The translations under genes and the position numbers were made by a program. Below the pieces are notes generated by a model. That model saw only the letters and a list, made by a program, of their open reading frames with translations. It was not told the origin of the DNA and made no database searches. Shown here piece after piece: positions 2 to 4,978 of a DNA stretch of 64,000 nt. How positions within the stretch are numbered: position 1 is the first letter of the stretch; the number at the start of each line of letters is the position of its first letter. This DNA is from Candidatus Brevefilum sp. (GTDB lineage Bacteria; Chloroflexota; Anaerolineae; Anaerolineales; Anaerolineaceae), in NCBI GenBank assembly GCA_029210815.1, contig JARGGB010000001.1, positions 138,308 to 202,307 on the forward strand, given 5' to 3'.

Positions 2-307
2 GGCAAAAGTGACATGCCCCAGGTCAGAACAATCAGAGACTCTCTTGCTGAAAGAACGCCAACTGTTCATGTTGTATCCGCCAAAGAGCTCGCGCCTGAA
101 CAACAACGCGCACTTGTTCGCACCTTCAGTGCGCTTGCTGACAGAAACGTGAACATGGAAATCGAAATAAATCCAGAGCTAATTGCGGGGATTAGAATCA
201 GGATGGGTGATCTCGTCGTTGAAAATAACCTTGCCACAGAATTGGCTGAATTAAAATCTGAAGTTATCGAAGCCCTGGAAGAGAGCGTGGATACCCAGGA
301 TGGATAA
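2..307 (+). CDS. atpF: N-type F-ATPase b/delta fusion subunit, C-terminal part (5' end outside window)
   Basis: The reading frame is open to the left edge, so this is the last 101 residues of a longer protein. The visible part resembles the C-terminal end of F-ATPase subunit delta (OSCP): a segment reading AGIRIRMGDLVVENNLATEL matches the delta signature of a G-x-x-I-R-x-G-D-x-V stretch followed by a helical tail. In alternate (N-type) ATPases there is no separate delta gene, the b subunit is long and its gene directly precedes alpha; that order is seen here. The product would form the peripheral stalk joining the membrane sector to the alpha/beta head. It overlaps the alpha start by 8 bp, suggesting translational coupling. 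Only the C-terminus is seen, so the b part is inferred; a plain delta subunit is the alternative. Confidence 0.72.
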   Translation, partial: GKSDMPQVRTIRDSLAERTPTVHVVSAKELAPEQQRALVRTFSALADRNVNMEIEINPELIAGIRIRMGDLVVENNLATELAELKSEVIEALEESVDTQDG

Positions 308-1970
308 AGAGAACTTCAGCTTACCCGAAGAGCAATTTGGAGATATCTCCGAAAAAATTTCATCGCGAATGAAATTATCTGTCAGTAAAGAGGATTTCCT
401 GGCGATGGTGAAAAAAAATGTCGACCTTGACCGAGAACTTAAACCACAAAAAAGATTCAAGGAAACGGTTGACAAACTTTCGCAGCAATCCAAACAAATT
501 TCAACGCGTGTTCGTTTTAGAGATGTAGGTACAGTTCATCATATTGGTAATGGGGTTGCCACCGTATCCGGGCTGCCTAACGTCAGCATCGATGAAATTG
601 TCGTATTTCCAACCGGCGTTGAAGGCATGGCATTGAACCTCGATAAAAAACGGGTTGATCTGATCATGCTGGGAAGTGAAAATGACATCCGTGGTGGAGA
701 CCTGGTTCAGGCAACAGGCAATCGATTAAAAGTTCCTGTTGGCTCACAACTGCTGGGGCGCATCATTGATCCATTGGGTAACCCTCTTGACACTGACGAA
801 CCCATTGAAGCAAGTGAATATCGGTATTTATCACGCATTGCACCCGGGGTGATCAAGCGAGCGCCTGTCAATGAATCCATGTTCACCGGCACGAAAATTA
901 TTGATACTTTATTCCCGATTGGTCGTGGACAAAGAGAGCTCATTCTTGGAGATCGTCAAACCGGGAAAACCACATTAGCCGTCGATGCGATCATCAGCCA
1001 GAAAGACTCCGATGTTCGATGTATCTATGTTGCGATTGGTCAAAAGAAATCCAGTACCCTCGCCATAATAGAAACGCTCAAAAAACATGATGCCCTATCG
1101 TACACCTCATTTGTCATCAGCGGTCCGGATGATCAACCTGCATTACGCTATCTTGCCCCTTACACAGGTATGACCATGGCAGAATTCTTCCTGGACCAGG
1201 GGCTGGATGTCTTGATAATTTTCGACGATCTAAGCAAACATGCTGATTCATATCGCGAATTAAGCTTGCTCCTGCGGCGGCCGCCAGGACGAGAGGCTTA
1301 TCCTGGGGACATATTTTACATTCACTCAAGGTTGCTTGAACGGGCTTGCAAACTAAATGAGGAAAATAAAGGCGGGTCAATTACTGCCTTACCAATTGCG
1401 ACAACCCAAAATGGGAATTTATCGGATTACATTCCTACCAACTTGATTTCTATTACCGATGGGCAGTTAATGCTGGATGCCGATCTTTTCAACCAGGGAC
1501 AAAAACCTGCGGTTGATATCGGTCGCTCGGTATCACGTGTCGGTGGTGCAGCACAAAGACAGGCTGTTCGAAAACTGGTTGGAAATTTAAAACTTGAATT
1601 ATCTCAATATGAAGAAGTTGAACATTTCACCAGGTTTGGCACTGAGGTTGACCAGGCAACAAGACAACAAATTGAAAAAGGGAAGCGCATTTTAAATATT
1701 CTTAAGCAAAAACCCAATCAGCCCCTTACCTTCCCCCTTACAGTTGTGCTTTTGTTTGGTTTGACAAATGGGTATCTCTATGACATTCCGCTACCTCTTC
1801 TGGACGCTTATCAAGATGAATTAAAAAACTACTTTCATGCAAGAGAAAGTAAACTATTGAACGATATCGACAGAGAGGGTGCCCTGACAGATGAAATCAC
1901 GAAAGACCTGGAAAGAGCATTAACCGACTTCAATGAGGAATGGGTTGAGAAGAAAGGTGCAGCATCATGA
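300..1970 (+). CDS. atpA: F-type ATPase subunit alpha (alternate/N-type family)
   Basis: Non-catalytic nucleotide-binding subunit of the F1 head, which couples ATP synthesis or hydrolysis to ion movement across the membrane. Residues 217-224 hold the alpha-type P-loop GDRQTGKT. The alpha signature PAVDIGRSVSRVGGAAQ is present near residue 403 and the Walker B stretch LIIFDDLSKHA near residue 305. At 556 residues it is longer than the usual 500-510; the excess is mainly an N-terminal extension of roughly 50 residues. Alpha is followed by gamma with no beta gene between, as in the N-ATPase order D-C-Q-R-B-E-F-A-G, where beta stands first in the operon and so would lie upstream of this window. 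The stop overlaps the next start as ATGA. Confidence 0.95.
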   Translation: MDKENFSLPEEQFGDISEKISSRMKLSVSKEDFLAMVKKNVDLDRELKPQKRFKETVDKLSQQSKQISTRVRFRDVGTVHHIGNGVATVSGLPNVSIDEIVVFPTGVEGMALNLDKKRVDLIMLGSENDIRGGDLVQATGNRLKVPVGSQLLGRIIDPLGNPLDTDEPIEASEYRYLSRIAPGVIKRAPVNESMFTGTKIIDTLFPIGRGQRELILGDRQTGKTTLAVDAIISQKDSDVRCIYVAIGQKKSSTLAIIETLKKHDALSYTSFVISGPDDQPALRYLAPYTGMTMAEFFLDQGLDVLIIFDDLSKHADSYRELSLLLRRPPGREAYPGDIFYIHSRLLERACKLNEENKGGSITALPIATTQNGNLSDYIPTNLISITDGQLMLDADLFNQGQKPAVDIGRSVSRVGGAAQRQAVRKLVGNLKLELSQYEEVEHFTRFGTEVDQATRQQIEKGKRILNILKQKPNQPLTFPLTVVLLFGLTNGYLYDIPLPLLDAYQDELKNYFHARESKLLNDIDREGALTDEITKDLERALTDFNEEWVEKKGAAS

Positions 1971-2287
1971 AAATGGTAATGGCTGTCGTACCATCCAGCA
2001 ACGCAGAAGATGTTCTTGACGCTTTAATCAATCGAGGACATACAGCAACATATGCCCACACAAAAGGAGGCATGCTCAGGCAAAGCCAATACTCACTTTT
2101 TATTGCAGTCCATAAGGACGAATTAGAAGAAGTGTTGGAAATCATCAAAAGCAGCTGCCGTACACAGGTTGAAATGAGCACCCTGGACTCCCAGGATAAG
2201 GACACGATAGGATCAGCGCCGGTCGTTGCCGATTTAGGCGGTGCAATTGCGTTTATCTGGGATATAAACCGGATTGAGACCTTTTAA
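1967..2287 (+). CDS. PII-like cyclic-di-AMP receptor (DarA/PstA, DUF970 family)
   Basis: A 106-residue PII-like protein. It shares with the DarA (YaaQ) family the N-terminal strand KMVMAVVPSSNA, the T-loop region with an HTKGGML motif (family form TTGGFL), and the C-terminal block GGAIAFIWDINRIETF (DarA: GGATVFVLDVDQF). Family members are small trimers that bind cyclic di-AMP and change loop conformation; no catalytic activity is known. The gene overlaps the alpha stop by 4 bp and ends a few bases before gamma, so it is translated as part of the ATPase operon. The second Thr of TTGGFL is Lys here and the following G-N-T-T segment is altered, so ligand specificity may differ. Family membership is firm; c-di-AMP binding and a role in ATPase control are inference. 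Confidence 0.85.
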   Translation: MKMVMAVVPSSNAEDVLDALINRGHTATYAHTKGGMLRQSQYSLFIAVHKDELEEVLEIIKSSCRTQVEMSTLDSQDKDTIGSAPVVADLGGAIAFIWDINRIETF

Positions 2288-2295
2288 GAGTTTTG

Positions 2296-3189
2296 ATGTC
2301 ACAAAATTTTGAACGCGCAAAATCTCGCCTTGAGAATATTTCCACCATTGAACCCTTGCTTGGGGCACTCAGGACCATGTCAATGGGTACATGGCAATTG
2401 GCACTGAACAAAATTGACAAAATGAACGCTTATGAAGACAACTATAATCACATCATTACTGAAATCCTTCCTTATATCAACAAGAAAACTTCAAAAGCCA
2501 GAGAAAGTAAAGAAAAAGACCAAAAGATAACTGACACAATCATTTTGTTGATCGGGACAGAACGGGGTTTATGCGGCAAATTCAATGAAGCGCTTATTGA
2601 ACAATCAATAAGCTGGTTAAAAGAAGCGGACCTCCCTTCTTATCAAATTTGGGCAATGGGATCAAGATTAATACGCAAGCTTGAACAAATGAAAATTGAT
2701 ATTTCCTGGCGACAACCAATGTCAGCATCTGATCTGATGACCTACCAAAAAGCCTACCTCACAACTCAAAAGTGGGTTGAACAATACGAGGCATATGCCT
2801 TCAATCAATTTTTTGTTTTATTCAACCAGAGTGAAAAGAGCGGACAATACCAGTTCTCATCATCTAAACTGCTTCCGTATGAATTTCAACGCAATGAAGC
2901 TAATCAAGAGCAAAAGTCACAACGTTGGCCGCCACCCATCATAGAAACCGACCCAACAGGCATTTATTCAACAATCATTCAGCATCATATTGCTGCAAGC
3001 TTTTATAAGATGACTTTAAAATCAGCTGCTGCAGAACACGCAGCGAGATTTAATCTAATGCAAGAAGCAAAAGATAATGCAGAGGAAATCATCGAAGAAT
3101 TGCGTAGAATCATAAATTCAGAAAGAAAAAGAAAAATCACCCAGGAAATGCAGGAACTTGCAGCTGGTGCAGGTCTCTTACATAATTAG
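2296..3189 (+). CDS. atpG: F-type ATPase subunit gamma (alternate/N-type family)
   Basis: Central rotor-shaft subunit of F1, 297 residues. It has the family's architecture: an N-terminal helix (residues 1-55, with LRTMSMGTWQLALNKI), a middle Rossmann-like domain with the conserved ERGLCGKFNEALIEQ near residue 92, and a C-terminal helix beginning with ASFYKMTLKSAAAEHAARFN and ending with an R-K-R-K-I-T-QEM-E stretch. The sequence is divergent from housekeeping gamma, fitting the alternate gamma family. I prefer ATG at 2296; a TTG one codon upstream is also in frame. It is the last recognisable ATPase subunit, and no beta or epsilon gene follows. A small 6-bp stem (3202-3220) lies between its stop and the next ribosome binding site. 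Confidence 0.88.
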   Translation: MSQNFERAKSRLENISTIEPLLGALRTMSMGTWQLALNKIDKMNAYEDNYNHIITEILPYINKKTSKARESKEKDQKITDTIILLIGTERGLCGKFNEALIEQSISWLKEADLPSYQIWAMGSRLIRKLEQMKIDISWRQPMSASDLMTYQKAYLTTQKWVEQYEAYAFNQFFVLFNQSEKSGQYQFSSSKLLPYEFQRNEANQEQKSQRWPPPIIETDPTGIYSTIIQHHIAASFYKMTLKSAAAEHAARFNLMQEAKDNAEEIIEELRRIINSERKRKITQEMQELAAGAGLLHN

Positions 3190-3234: not shown

Positions 3235-4926
3235 TTGAGCGCAAAGAAAAAATTCACAATAGGTATCAATTTTGGTGCTGAAACTGTTAGGGCGATCCTT
3301 GTAGATGTCAGTAATGGAAGTTTGGCTGCGACAAGCACATATTCGTACTACCATGGAATTATTACAGAAAAATTACCTGGCACAGATATTGAATTGGACG
3401 AAGGATGGGCATTGCAGCATCCACAAGATTATATTAATGCACTCAAACGAACCGTTCCCAAGCTTCTCAAAGAAAGTCAAATCGAAGCCTCTCAAGTTAT
3501 TGGCATTGGAACTTCTTTTGTAGGATCTACGCTTATCCCAGTAACGGCTGATGGCACACCCTTAGCACTTATCGATGATTACGCCCAAGAACCGCATGCC
3601 TGGCCAAAACATGTTTATCATCAATCTGCAAAAGAAAAAGCAGACAGGCTCACACAGTTAGCAACAGACCGATTCGAAACCTTTCTGGATCGTTATGGTG
3701 GAAAATTAAATCATCAATGGTTCTTCCCAAAAGTTTGGGAATTATATGACGATTCTTCATCAATTTACAATGCTGCCGAAAAATTAATTGAAGCATCAGA
3801 TTGGATTGTTTGGCAGCTCACAGGCGTTGAAACCCGCAATTTGTGCTCAGCAGGTTATAAAGCACTTTGGTCCAAAAGTGAGGGGTTTCCCCTGGAGACT
3901 TTTTTCAGCGCGATGGACCATGATTTGGCGAATATCGTCGACGAAAAAATGAGCCGGGAAATCTCTTCCCTGGGTCAACAGGCTGGCGAACTAACTGAAG
4001 AAGCTGCACAATGGATGAAACTTGACCCTGGAATTCCTGTTTCAACAGGGGTTTTGAGCAGTCACGCAGCAGTTCCAGCCGCTACCGTGGTTGAACCCGG
4101 GAATATGGCAATTATTATGGATTCCGATTTTCGTCACATGATTTTATCGAAAAAAGAATACCGTGTTCCGGGTATGTGCGGTATGGTTGAAGACGGCATT
4201 GTCCCAGGATTATTTGCTTATGAAGCGCGCCAGGCTGGGAGCGGCGACCACTTTTCATGGTTTATAAAGAATGCGGTACCTGAGCATTACTCAAAAGAGG
4301 CACGTCAGAAAAAAATCAGTATTTTCCAGCTTCTTGAAGAGAAAGCCGCAGCTTTAAAACCAGCGGAATCAGGTTTAGTGGCTTTGGATTGGTGGCACGG
4401 TAACCGCAGCATCCTTGTTGACGAAGACCTCTCCGGTTTGATCCTCGGGTATTCAATGAAAACAAAGCCTGAGGAAGTCTATCGTGCACTTCTTGAAGCG
4501 ACGACTTTTGGAACTCGTAAGATTTTTGAAACGTTCATTGCGAGCGGTGTACCGATCAATGAAATTATTGTGACAGGTGGAAAACCAACCACAAATAAAC
4601 TCTTGCTAAATATCTTGGCAAACGTCACCAGAACTGAAATTAAAGTTGCGAAAAGCCCATACACCTCAGCCTTGGGTGCGGCAATGTATGCTGCCGTAGC
4701 CGCAGGGGAAGCTCGGGGTGGATATGGGAATATTCAAGAAGCAAGTAAAAAAATGGCACAACTATCAACCAAAAGCTTTGTACCAAATAATAATGACAAG
4801 AAAACATACAATCGACTTTATTCTGAATATACGCTGCTCCACGATTATTTCGGTTATGGGCACAATAACGCGATGAAACGACTTAACAATCTGCGAACCA
4901 ACATTCTTGAAAAGAAACGCCGATAA
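3235..4926 (+). CDS. Ribulokinase-like FGGY-family protein, probably catalytically inactive
   Basis: At 563 residues this matches AraB-type L-ribulokinase end to end: ALQHPQDYI near residue 60, SDWIVWQLTG near 188, RVPGMCGMVEDG near 309, LVALDWWHGNRSILVDEDL near 381, and a C-terminal LYSEYTLLHDYF. The frame is intact but the active-site motifs have gone. The phosphate loop is FGAETVR (13-19) where AraB has FGTLSGR. The sugar site has GTS (92-94) instead of GID. The catalytic Asp of NVDAH is Ser275. The GTSTCH nucleotide motif is DSDFRH (296-301). AraB motifs are recalled from known family sequences, not aligned by program. It starts at TTG after an AGGAGA site, 45 bp behind atpG, and ends at a strong terminator, so it probably shares the ATPase transcript. 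No arabinose genes are nearby. A regulatory or binding role is inference. Confidence 0.85.
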   Translation: MSAKKKFTIGINFGAETVRAILVDVSNGSLAATSTYSYYHGIITEKLPGTDIELDEGWALQHPQDYINALKRTVPKLLKESQIEASQVIGIGTSFVGSTLIPVTADGTPLALIDDYAQEPHAWPKHVYHQSAKEKADRLTQLATDRFETFLDRYGGKLNHQWFFPKVWELYDDSSSIYNAAEKLIEASDWIVWQLTGVETRNLCSAGYKALWSKSEGFPLETFFSAMDHDLANIVDEKMSREISSLGQQAGELTEEAAQWMKLDPGIPVSTGVLSSHAAVPAATVVEPGNMAIIMDSDFRHMILSKKEYRVPGMCGMVEDGIVPGLFAYEARQAGSGDHFSWFIKNAVPEHYSKEARQKKISIFQLLEEKAAALKPAESGLVALDWWHGNRSILVDEDLSGLILGYSMKTKPEEVYRALLEATTFGTRKIFETFIASGVPINEIIVTGGKPTTNKLLLNILANVTRTEIKVAKSPYTSALGAAMYAAVAAGEARGGYGNIQEASKKMAQLSTKSFVPNNNDKKTYNRLYSEYTLLHDYFGYGHNNAMKRLNNLRTNILEKKRR

Positions 4927-4946
4927 CAAAGCAAATCTCAAATTCA

Positions 4947-4978
4947 GCACCAGCAGGTCTTTTTGCTGGTGCTTTTTT
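4947..4978 (+). terminator. Rho-independent terminator after the ATPase/FGGY unit
   Basis: A perfect 9-bp stem GCACCAGCA (4947-4955) / TGCTGGTGC (4964-4972) with an 8-nt loop is followed at once by six T residues. It lies 20 bp after the FGGY stop and marks the end of the operon that begins upstream of the window. Confidence 0.93.

Follow-up and report, generated by a model that had tools for sequence, protein, structure and literature searches.

The last gene of an N-type ATPase operon in a Brevefilum-like member of the Anaerolineaceae encodes a protein which, judged by its sequence, is a ribulokinase by descent and not by the active-site features examined. It is very probably a retained pseudokinase: its catalytic motifs are absent and its gene is under purifying selection. 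The history that we somewhat favour is that a former ribulokinase was captured by the ATPase operon and took on a non-catalytic role, after which catalysis became dispensable. The gene lies in the window, which is the whole 64,000-nucleotide stretch of DNA analysed here, taken from a MAG (G000) that is 95.9% complete.

The ATPase operon and its last gene

The operon runs in the order atpD-C-Q-R-B-E-F-A, PII/DarA-like gene, atpG, araB-like gene, terminator. Its parts are as follows.

300..1970, + strand: atpA, alpha subunit of the N-type ATPase (profile match)
L045:9423-13615, upstream and mostly outside the window: rest of the operon (beta, epsilon, Q, R, a, c, b/delta fusion)
1967..2287, + strand: PII-like / cyclic-di-AMP-receptor-like protein (CdAMP_rec), 106 aa, between alpha and gamma
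2293..3189, + strand: atpG, gamma subunit, directly upstream of the AraB-like gene with a 45 nt gap
3235..4926, + strand: AraB-like FGGY gene, very probably a pseudokinase, 563 aa, TTG start (homology and orthologues)
4946..4973, + strand: strong intrinsic-terminator-like hairpin after the AraB-like gene, closing the operon

The AraB-like frame has no internal stop in its 563 codons, and its TTG start is preceded by AGGAG. The protein scores 609.9 bits against NCBIfam PRK04123 (cut-off 428) and 591.5 bits against TIGR01234 (curated cut-off 583.25), and both FGGY_N and FGGY_C are found in it, which is the full-length FGGY architecture. Its top PDB match is 3QDK, the Bacillus halodurans ribulokinase, at 618 bits over residues 5-554, and the printed alignment of the two is gap-free. 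A sequence-only reading of this DNA had proposed a full-length ribulokinase homologue with an intact frame; the PRK04123, TIGR01234 and 3QDK scores bear out the homology, and the frame is whole here and in 12 genomes. Given scores above curated cut-offs, automatic annotation would label the protein a ribulokinase.

N-type ATPase operons have the order beta-epsilon-X-X-a-c-(b/delta)-alpha-gamma and no separate delta (PMC11738941). The window operon shares this gene order and the b/delta fusion, likewise with no separate delta, but adds the PII-like gene between alpha and gamma and the AraB-like gene after gamma. Its alpha subunit scores 603 bits against TIGR03324, below the curated cut-off of 750.5; since only one of 61 relatives reaches that value, the model may be too narrow here for members of this phylum. 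Neither the PII-like nor the AraB-like gene occurs in a second N-type ATPase operon, which is present in this genome (L144, G000:C52) and in two relatives (L145, L146).

The order alpha, PII-like gene, gamma, AraB was found in 12 genomes, 11 of the genus and one of a sister genus (G098), and the genus copies have a TTG or GTG start. The predicted co-transcription of the AraB-like gene with the ATPase, already thought probable in the sequence-only reading, is supported by this conserved order, by gaps of 38-59 nt after gamma in the 12 genomes, and by a terminator-like hairpin that follows AraB in nearly all of them, the genus copies included.

The 12 operon copies form one clade (100/100) when compared with 22 non-operon AraB copies from other genera and families. 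No ATPase genes were found beside non-operon AraB at the ten loci examined, and several non-operon loci adjoin araA by coordinates. One ribulokinase gene adjoining araA (L017, G025:C12:21637-23307) is interrupted within the match by a TAG and a TAA, and its translation has two stops. In N-ATPase operons of other Anaerolineales genera, some of them represented by short stretches, no AraB was detected after gamma and the PII-like gene is present; because of this, AraB probably joined the operon later, and the capture of an AraB by a pre-existing operon is the simplest history. No operon-type copy was detected in genus members without this ATPase operon, whose genomes are 69-81% complete, and several genomes in the comparison are incomplete MAGs.

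Loss of catalytic motifs and constraint after the loss

Residues were mapped by aligning the window protein onto 3QDK numbering. D11, T14, T95, D274 and C299 of 3QDK correspond to N12, A15, V96, S275 and R300 of the window protein, and the GTS loop corresponds to D296-S297-D298.

3268..3288, + strand: phosphate loop 1, N12-F-G-A15-E-T-V; D12 and T15 of active relatives lost
3514..3531, + strand: sugar-site loop S94-F-V96-G-S-T99; canonical form D-F-T-(A/G)-(C/S)-T
3859..3861, + strand: retained Lys209 (3QDK Lys208, L-ribulose contact; alignment; PMC4880283)
4057..4059, + strand: Ser275 codon AGC at the catalytic Asp position (3QDK Asp274; alignment; PMC4880283)
4120..4137, + strand: second phosphate loop, DSDFRH replacing GTS(T/I)CH (alignment)
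4222..4224, + strand: retained Glu330 (3QDK Glu329, L-ribulose contact; alignment; PMC4880283)

In 3QDK, L-ribulose is contacted by Asp274, Lys208 and Glu329, and in the related kinase SePSK the residues D8, T11 and D221, which match the lost Asp/Thr residues, are required for activity (PMC4880283). The sequence-only reading had held that all active-site motifs were replaced. The four motifs which it named (phosphate loop, sugar site, catalytic Asp to Ser275, GTSTCH to DSDFRH) are indeed changed in the 3QDK alignment, with Ser275 standing at the Asp274 position, but the word "all" went too far: K209, E330, H301, Q333, W386-W387 and the adenine-side GG(448-449)...N454 are kept. An orthologue from a separate assembly, 94% identical, carries the same SS and DSDFRH motifs, so the substitutions are not sequencing noise. 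The window protein thus has in common with AraB (3QDK) a full-length two-domain match above equivalog cut-offs and the Lys208/Glu329 contacts, and differs from it in the loss of Asp274, D11/T14, the sugar loop and the GTS loop, in a genome without araA or clear araD, and in being encoded by the last gene of an ATPase operon. We infer from these residues that the protein is catalytically dead, and the kept Lys209, Glu330 and adenine-side motif may be compatible with ligand binding or residual activity. An AlphaFold2 model made with 10 orthologues had a pLDDT of 47.7, too poor for use.

Four genus members (G010, G011, G003 and G015) have a canonical or near-canonical Asp, both phosphate loops and sugar loop. 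The Asp is lost in six genus genomes and in the sister-genus genome: it is Ser in G000, G012, G014 and G013, and Asn in G008, G009 and G098. The Asp position and the residue after it read, by lineage, S-S, S-S, S-P, N-N and N-A, and positions 12, 15 and 96 and the GTS loop also differ among the lost-Asp lineages. In G001 the Asp is present, together with the changes T15->I and T297->P. In the 20 outside AraB copies compared, the Asp is invariant.

A tree of RpoB+RpoC scatters the lost-Asp genomes, nesting G014 (lost Asp) with the Asp-bearing G011, and a single clade of the six genus members is rejected (p-AU 1.1e-56). The operon tree scatters them likewise. If the Asp is taken as ancestral and never regained, about five losses are needed on both trees, and counting strongly supported branches alone the minimum is two to three label changes. 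In the AraB gene tree the six genus copies without the Asp fall together (90/93), and fewer losses would be needed if that tree were true. The operon topology is compatible with the AraB alignment (p-AU 0.20, or 0.47 without the motif columns), which prefers the AraB tree to the exact RpoB/C topology (p-AU 0.016, 0.025). The best reading of the six-copy grouping is convergence or long-branch attraction. The RpoB/C tree rejects the idea that the genus copies lost the Asp only once, though the AraB tree alone groups them.

Both G000 and G012 carry the SS and DSD motifs, which places the differences between them after the loss; dN is 0.027-0.033, dS 0.66-0.75 and dN/dS 0.040-0.044. For G008 and G009, both NN, dN/dS is 0.03-0.06 with dS near saturation. 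Codon-model omega for AraB is 0.043 in the lost-Asp set and 0.021 in the Asp set. The corresponding values are 0.050 and 0.027 for alpha, 0.027 and 0.008 for beta, and 0.102 and 0.041 for gamma, and because omega of these neighbours rises by similar factors there is no relaxation peculiar to AraB. Omega of the PII-like gene in the lost-Asp set is 0.044. A dN/dS of about 0.04 after the loss resembles that of the ATPase alpha subunit and leads us to reject neutral decay, and with 0.03-0.06 in the loss-sharing pairs and a whole frame in 12 genomes, the retained pseudokinase suspected from the letters alone holds up well.

Within the protein, constraint is lost only locally: in the Asp copies conservation is higher at the site (0.89-0.94) than elsewhere (0.81-0.85), and in the lost-Asp genus copies it is lower at the site (0.66-0.73) than elsewhere (0.74-0.82). 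The site holds 18 of the 27 changed invariant positions (Fisher p 1e-4, a descriptive value, since the site windows were drawn after seeing the alignment).

Arabinose genes and the PII-like neighbour

The araA gene was found in G010, G011 and G015 (cut by a contig end in G015), and a clear araD was found in the same three genomes, all of which have the intact Asp. All six lost-Asp genus genomes are without araA and have weak araD-family matches below cut-off, among them the 95.9% complete source genome of the window. In G003 and G001, which are 75% and 66% complete, araA was not found. The association of araA with the catalytic Asp is 3/3 vs 0/6 among the genomes scored, but well-supported branches yield only two independent pairs (sign test p 0.5). 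This suggests that active-site residues decay where arabinose is not used, and it is a lead rather than a statistically shown association.

An unusual XylB-like FGGY kinase, separate from the operon copy, adjoins araD in G010, G011 and G015 and is probably a non-AraB L-ribulokinase. The XylB-like loci are L141:8317-10621, L143:7811-10165, L180 and L182, and the gene also lies beside araA in G010 and, at a contig end, in G015. G013 has a XylB-like kinase and neither araA nor clear araD. Because G010, G011 and G015 carry this other FGGY kinase beside araD, the operon copy need not be an arabinose kinase, and the idea that it is simply the arabinose kinase of araA-bearing genomes is weakened. The operon copy could be an L-ribulose sensor.

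The 106-aa neighbour scores 63.2 against Pfam CdAMP_rec (cut-off 27) and 62.6 against NCBIfam DarA (cut-off 140). Compared with LmPstA, T28 is kept and N41 and G47 differ, and a diadenylate cyclase domain was found in all 12 genomes. An input of c-di-AMP through the PII-like protein is possible, its predicted ligand pocket being conserved only in part; more broadly, the protein may feed a c-di-AMP or nucleotide signal into a rotary ATPase. A PII-like CdAMP_rec gene follows alpha in N-type operons of many Anaerolineales genera (L147-L176), a distribution far wider than that of the AraB-like gene.

Possible roles of the retained protein

If a former ribulokinase was indeed captured, an L-ribulokinase gene would have entered the 3' end of the operon in the ancestor of the genus and its sister genus. 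The captured protein, produced alongside the ATPase and the operon's PII-like protein, would then have acquired a job that involves no phosphate transfer; most likely it would be a partner of the ATPase with an accessory, assembly or ligand-sensing function. The catalytic site would have become expendable and been lost separately in several lineages, including that of the window, with the fold remaining under strong purifying selection. The protein would most likely act by binding, either to an operon partner (the ATPase head or the PII-like protein) or to a ligand by which that partner is tuned. Since constraint has persisted beyond the end of catalysis in separate lineages, the non-catalytic function should be older than the losses and also present in the intact copies.

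How far the ATPase itself is involved is judged from synteny, which is the sole basis both for the physical or regulatory contact that we infer and for tying the role of the AraB-like protein to the ATPase, a proposal whose chances seem about even. That the protein is, with the PII-like protein, a true accessory or regulatory part of the N-type rotary ATPase, its ATPase role having come first and catalysis being repeatedly dispensable, is put forward tentatively.

A retained non-catalytic protein may instead have no ATPase role, for example a sugar or nucleotide sensor which uses the ATPase promoter for steady expression. The window copy retains the sugar contacts Lys209 and Glu330, and the full set of arabinose genes occurs only in genomes with the catalytic Asp, which hints at a link to sugar. 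However, the place directly after gamma is kept in every gene-bearing genome across two genera, and the 69-81% complete genus genomes without the ATPase operon yielded no such copy, so that a role unrelated to the ATPase seems rather unlikely. It is more doubtful still that the protein remains a kinase, one whose catalytic base has moved or whose substrate is new. Pseudokinases can prove to have other transferase activities (PMC10211241), and the full-length fold, the high conservation and the remaining ligand residues would fit; yet the replacements differ by lineage, whereas a single new motif should have become fixed if a new activity had arisen, and the two acids gained by the GTS loop of the window protein (DSD) would be unfavourable for ATP phosphates. 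It is very improbable that the intact copies are working ribulokinases and the gene elsewhere a leftover decaying in the operon after arabinose use was lost: the araA and araD distribution fits this, but the frame is free of stops and frameshifts, a dN/dS of about 0.04 at dS 0.66-0.75 contradicts it unless the dS estimate is badly wrong, and the three arabinose genomes have the separate XylB-like kinase beside araD.

With pseudoenzymes and pseudokinases generally the AraB-like protein shares the loss of catalytic motifs and the keeping of the frame and of fold-wide constraint. It differs in the FGGY sugar-kinase fold, in the recurrent loss among close orthologues and in the tie to a rotary ATPase operon; a literature search found no paper describing an FGGY pseudokinase or an ATPase operon that contains a ribulokinase. 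One genus offers a natural series in which the active site ranges from intact through partly eroded to dead, with the operon position unchanged and every copy under constraint. This series makes the transition from enzyme to pseudoenzyme directly testable, as the intact copies should already have the non-catalytic function. Should the protein prove to act on the ATPase, rotary ATPases would have a partner of a new kind.
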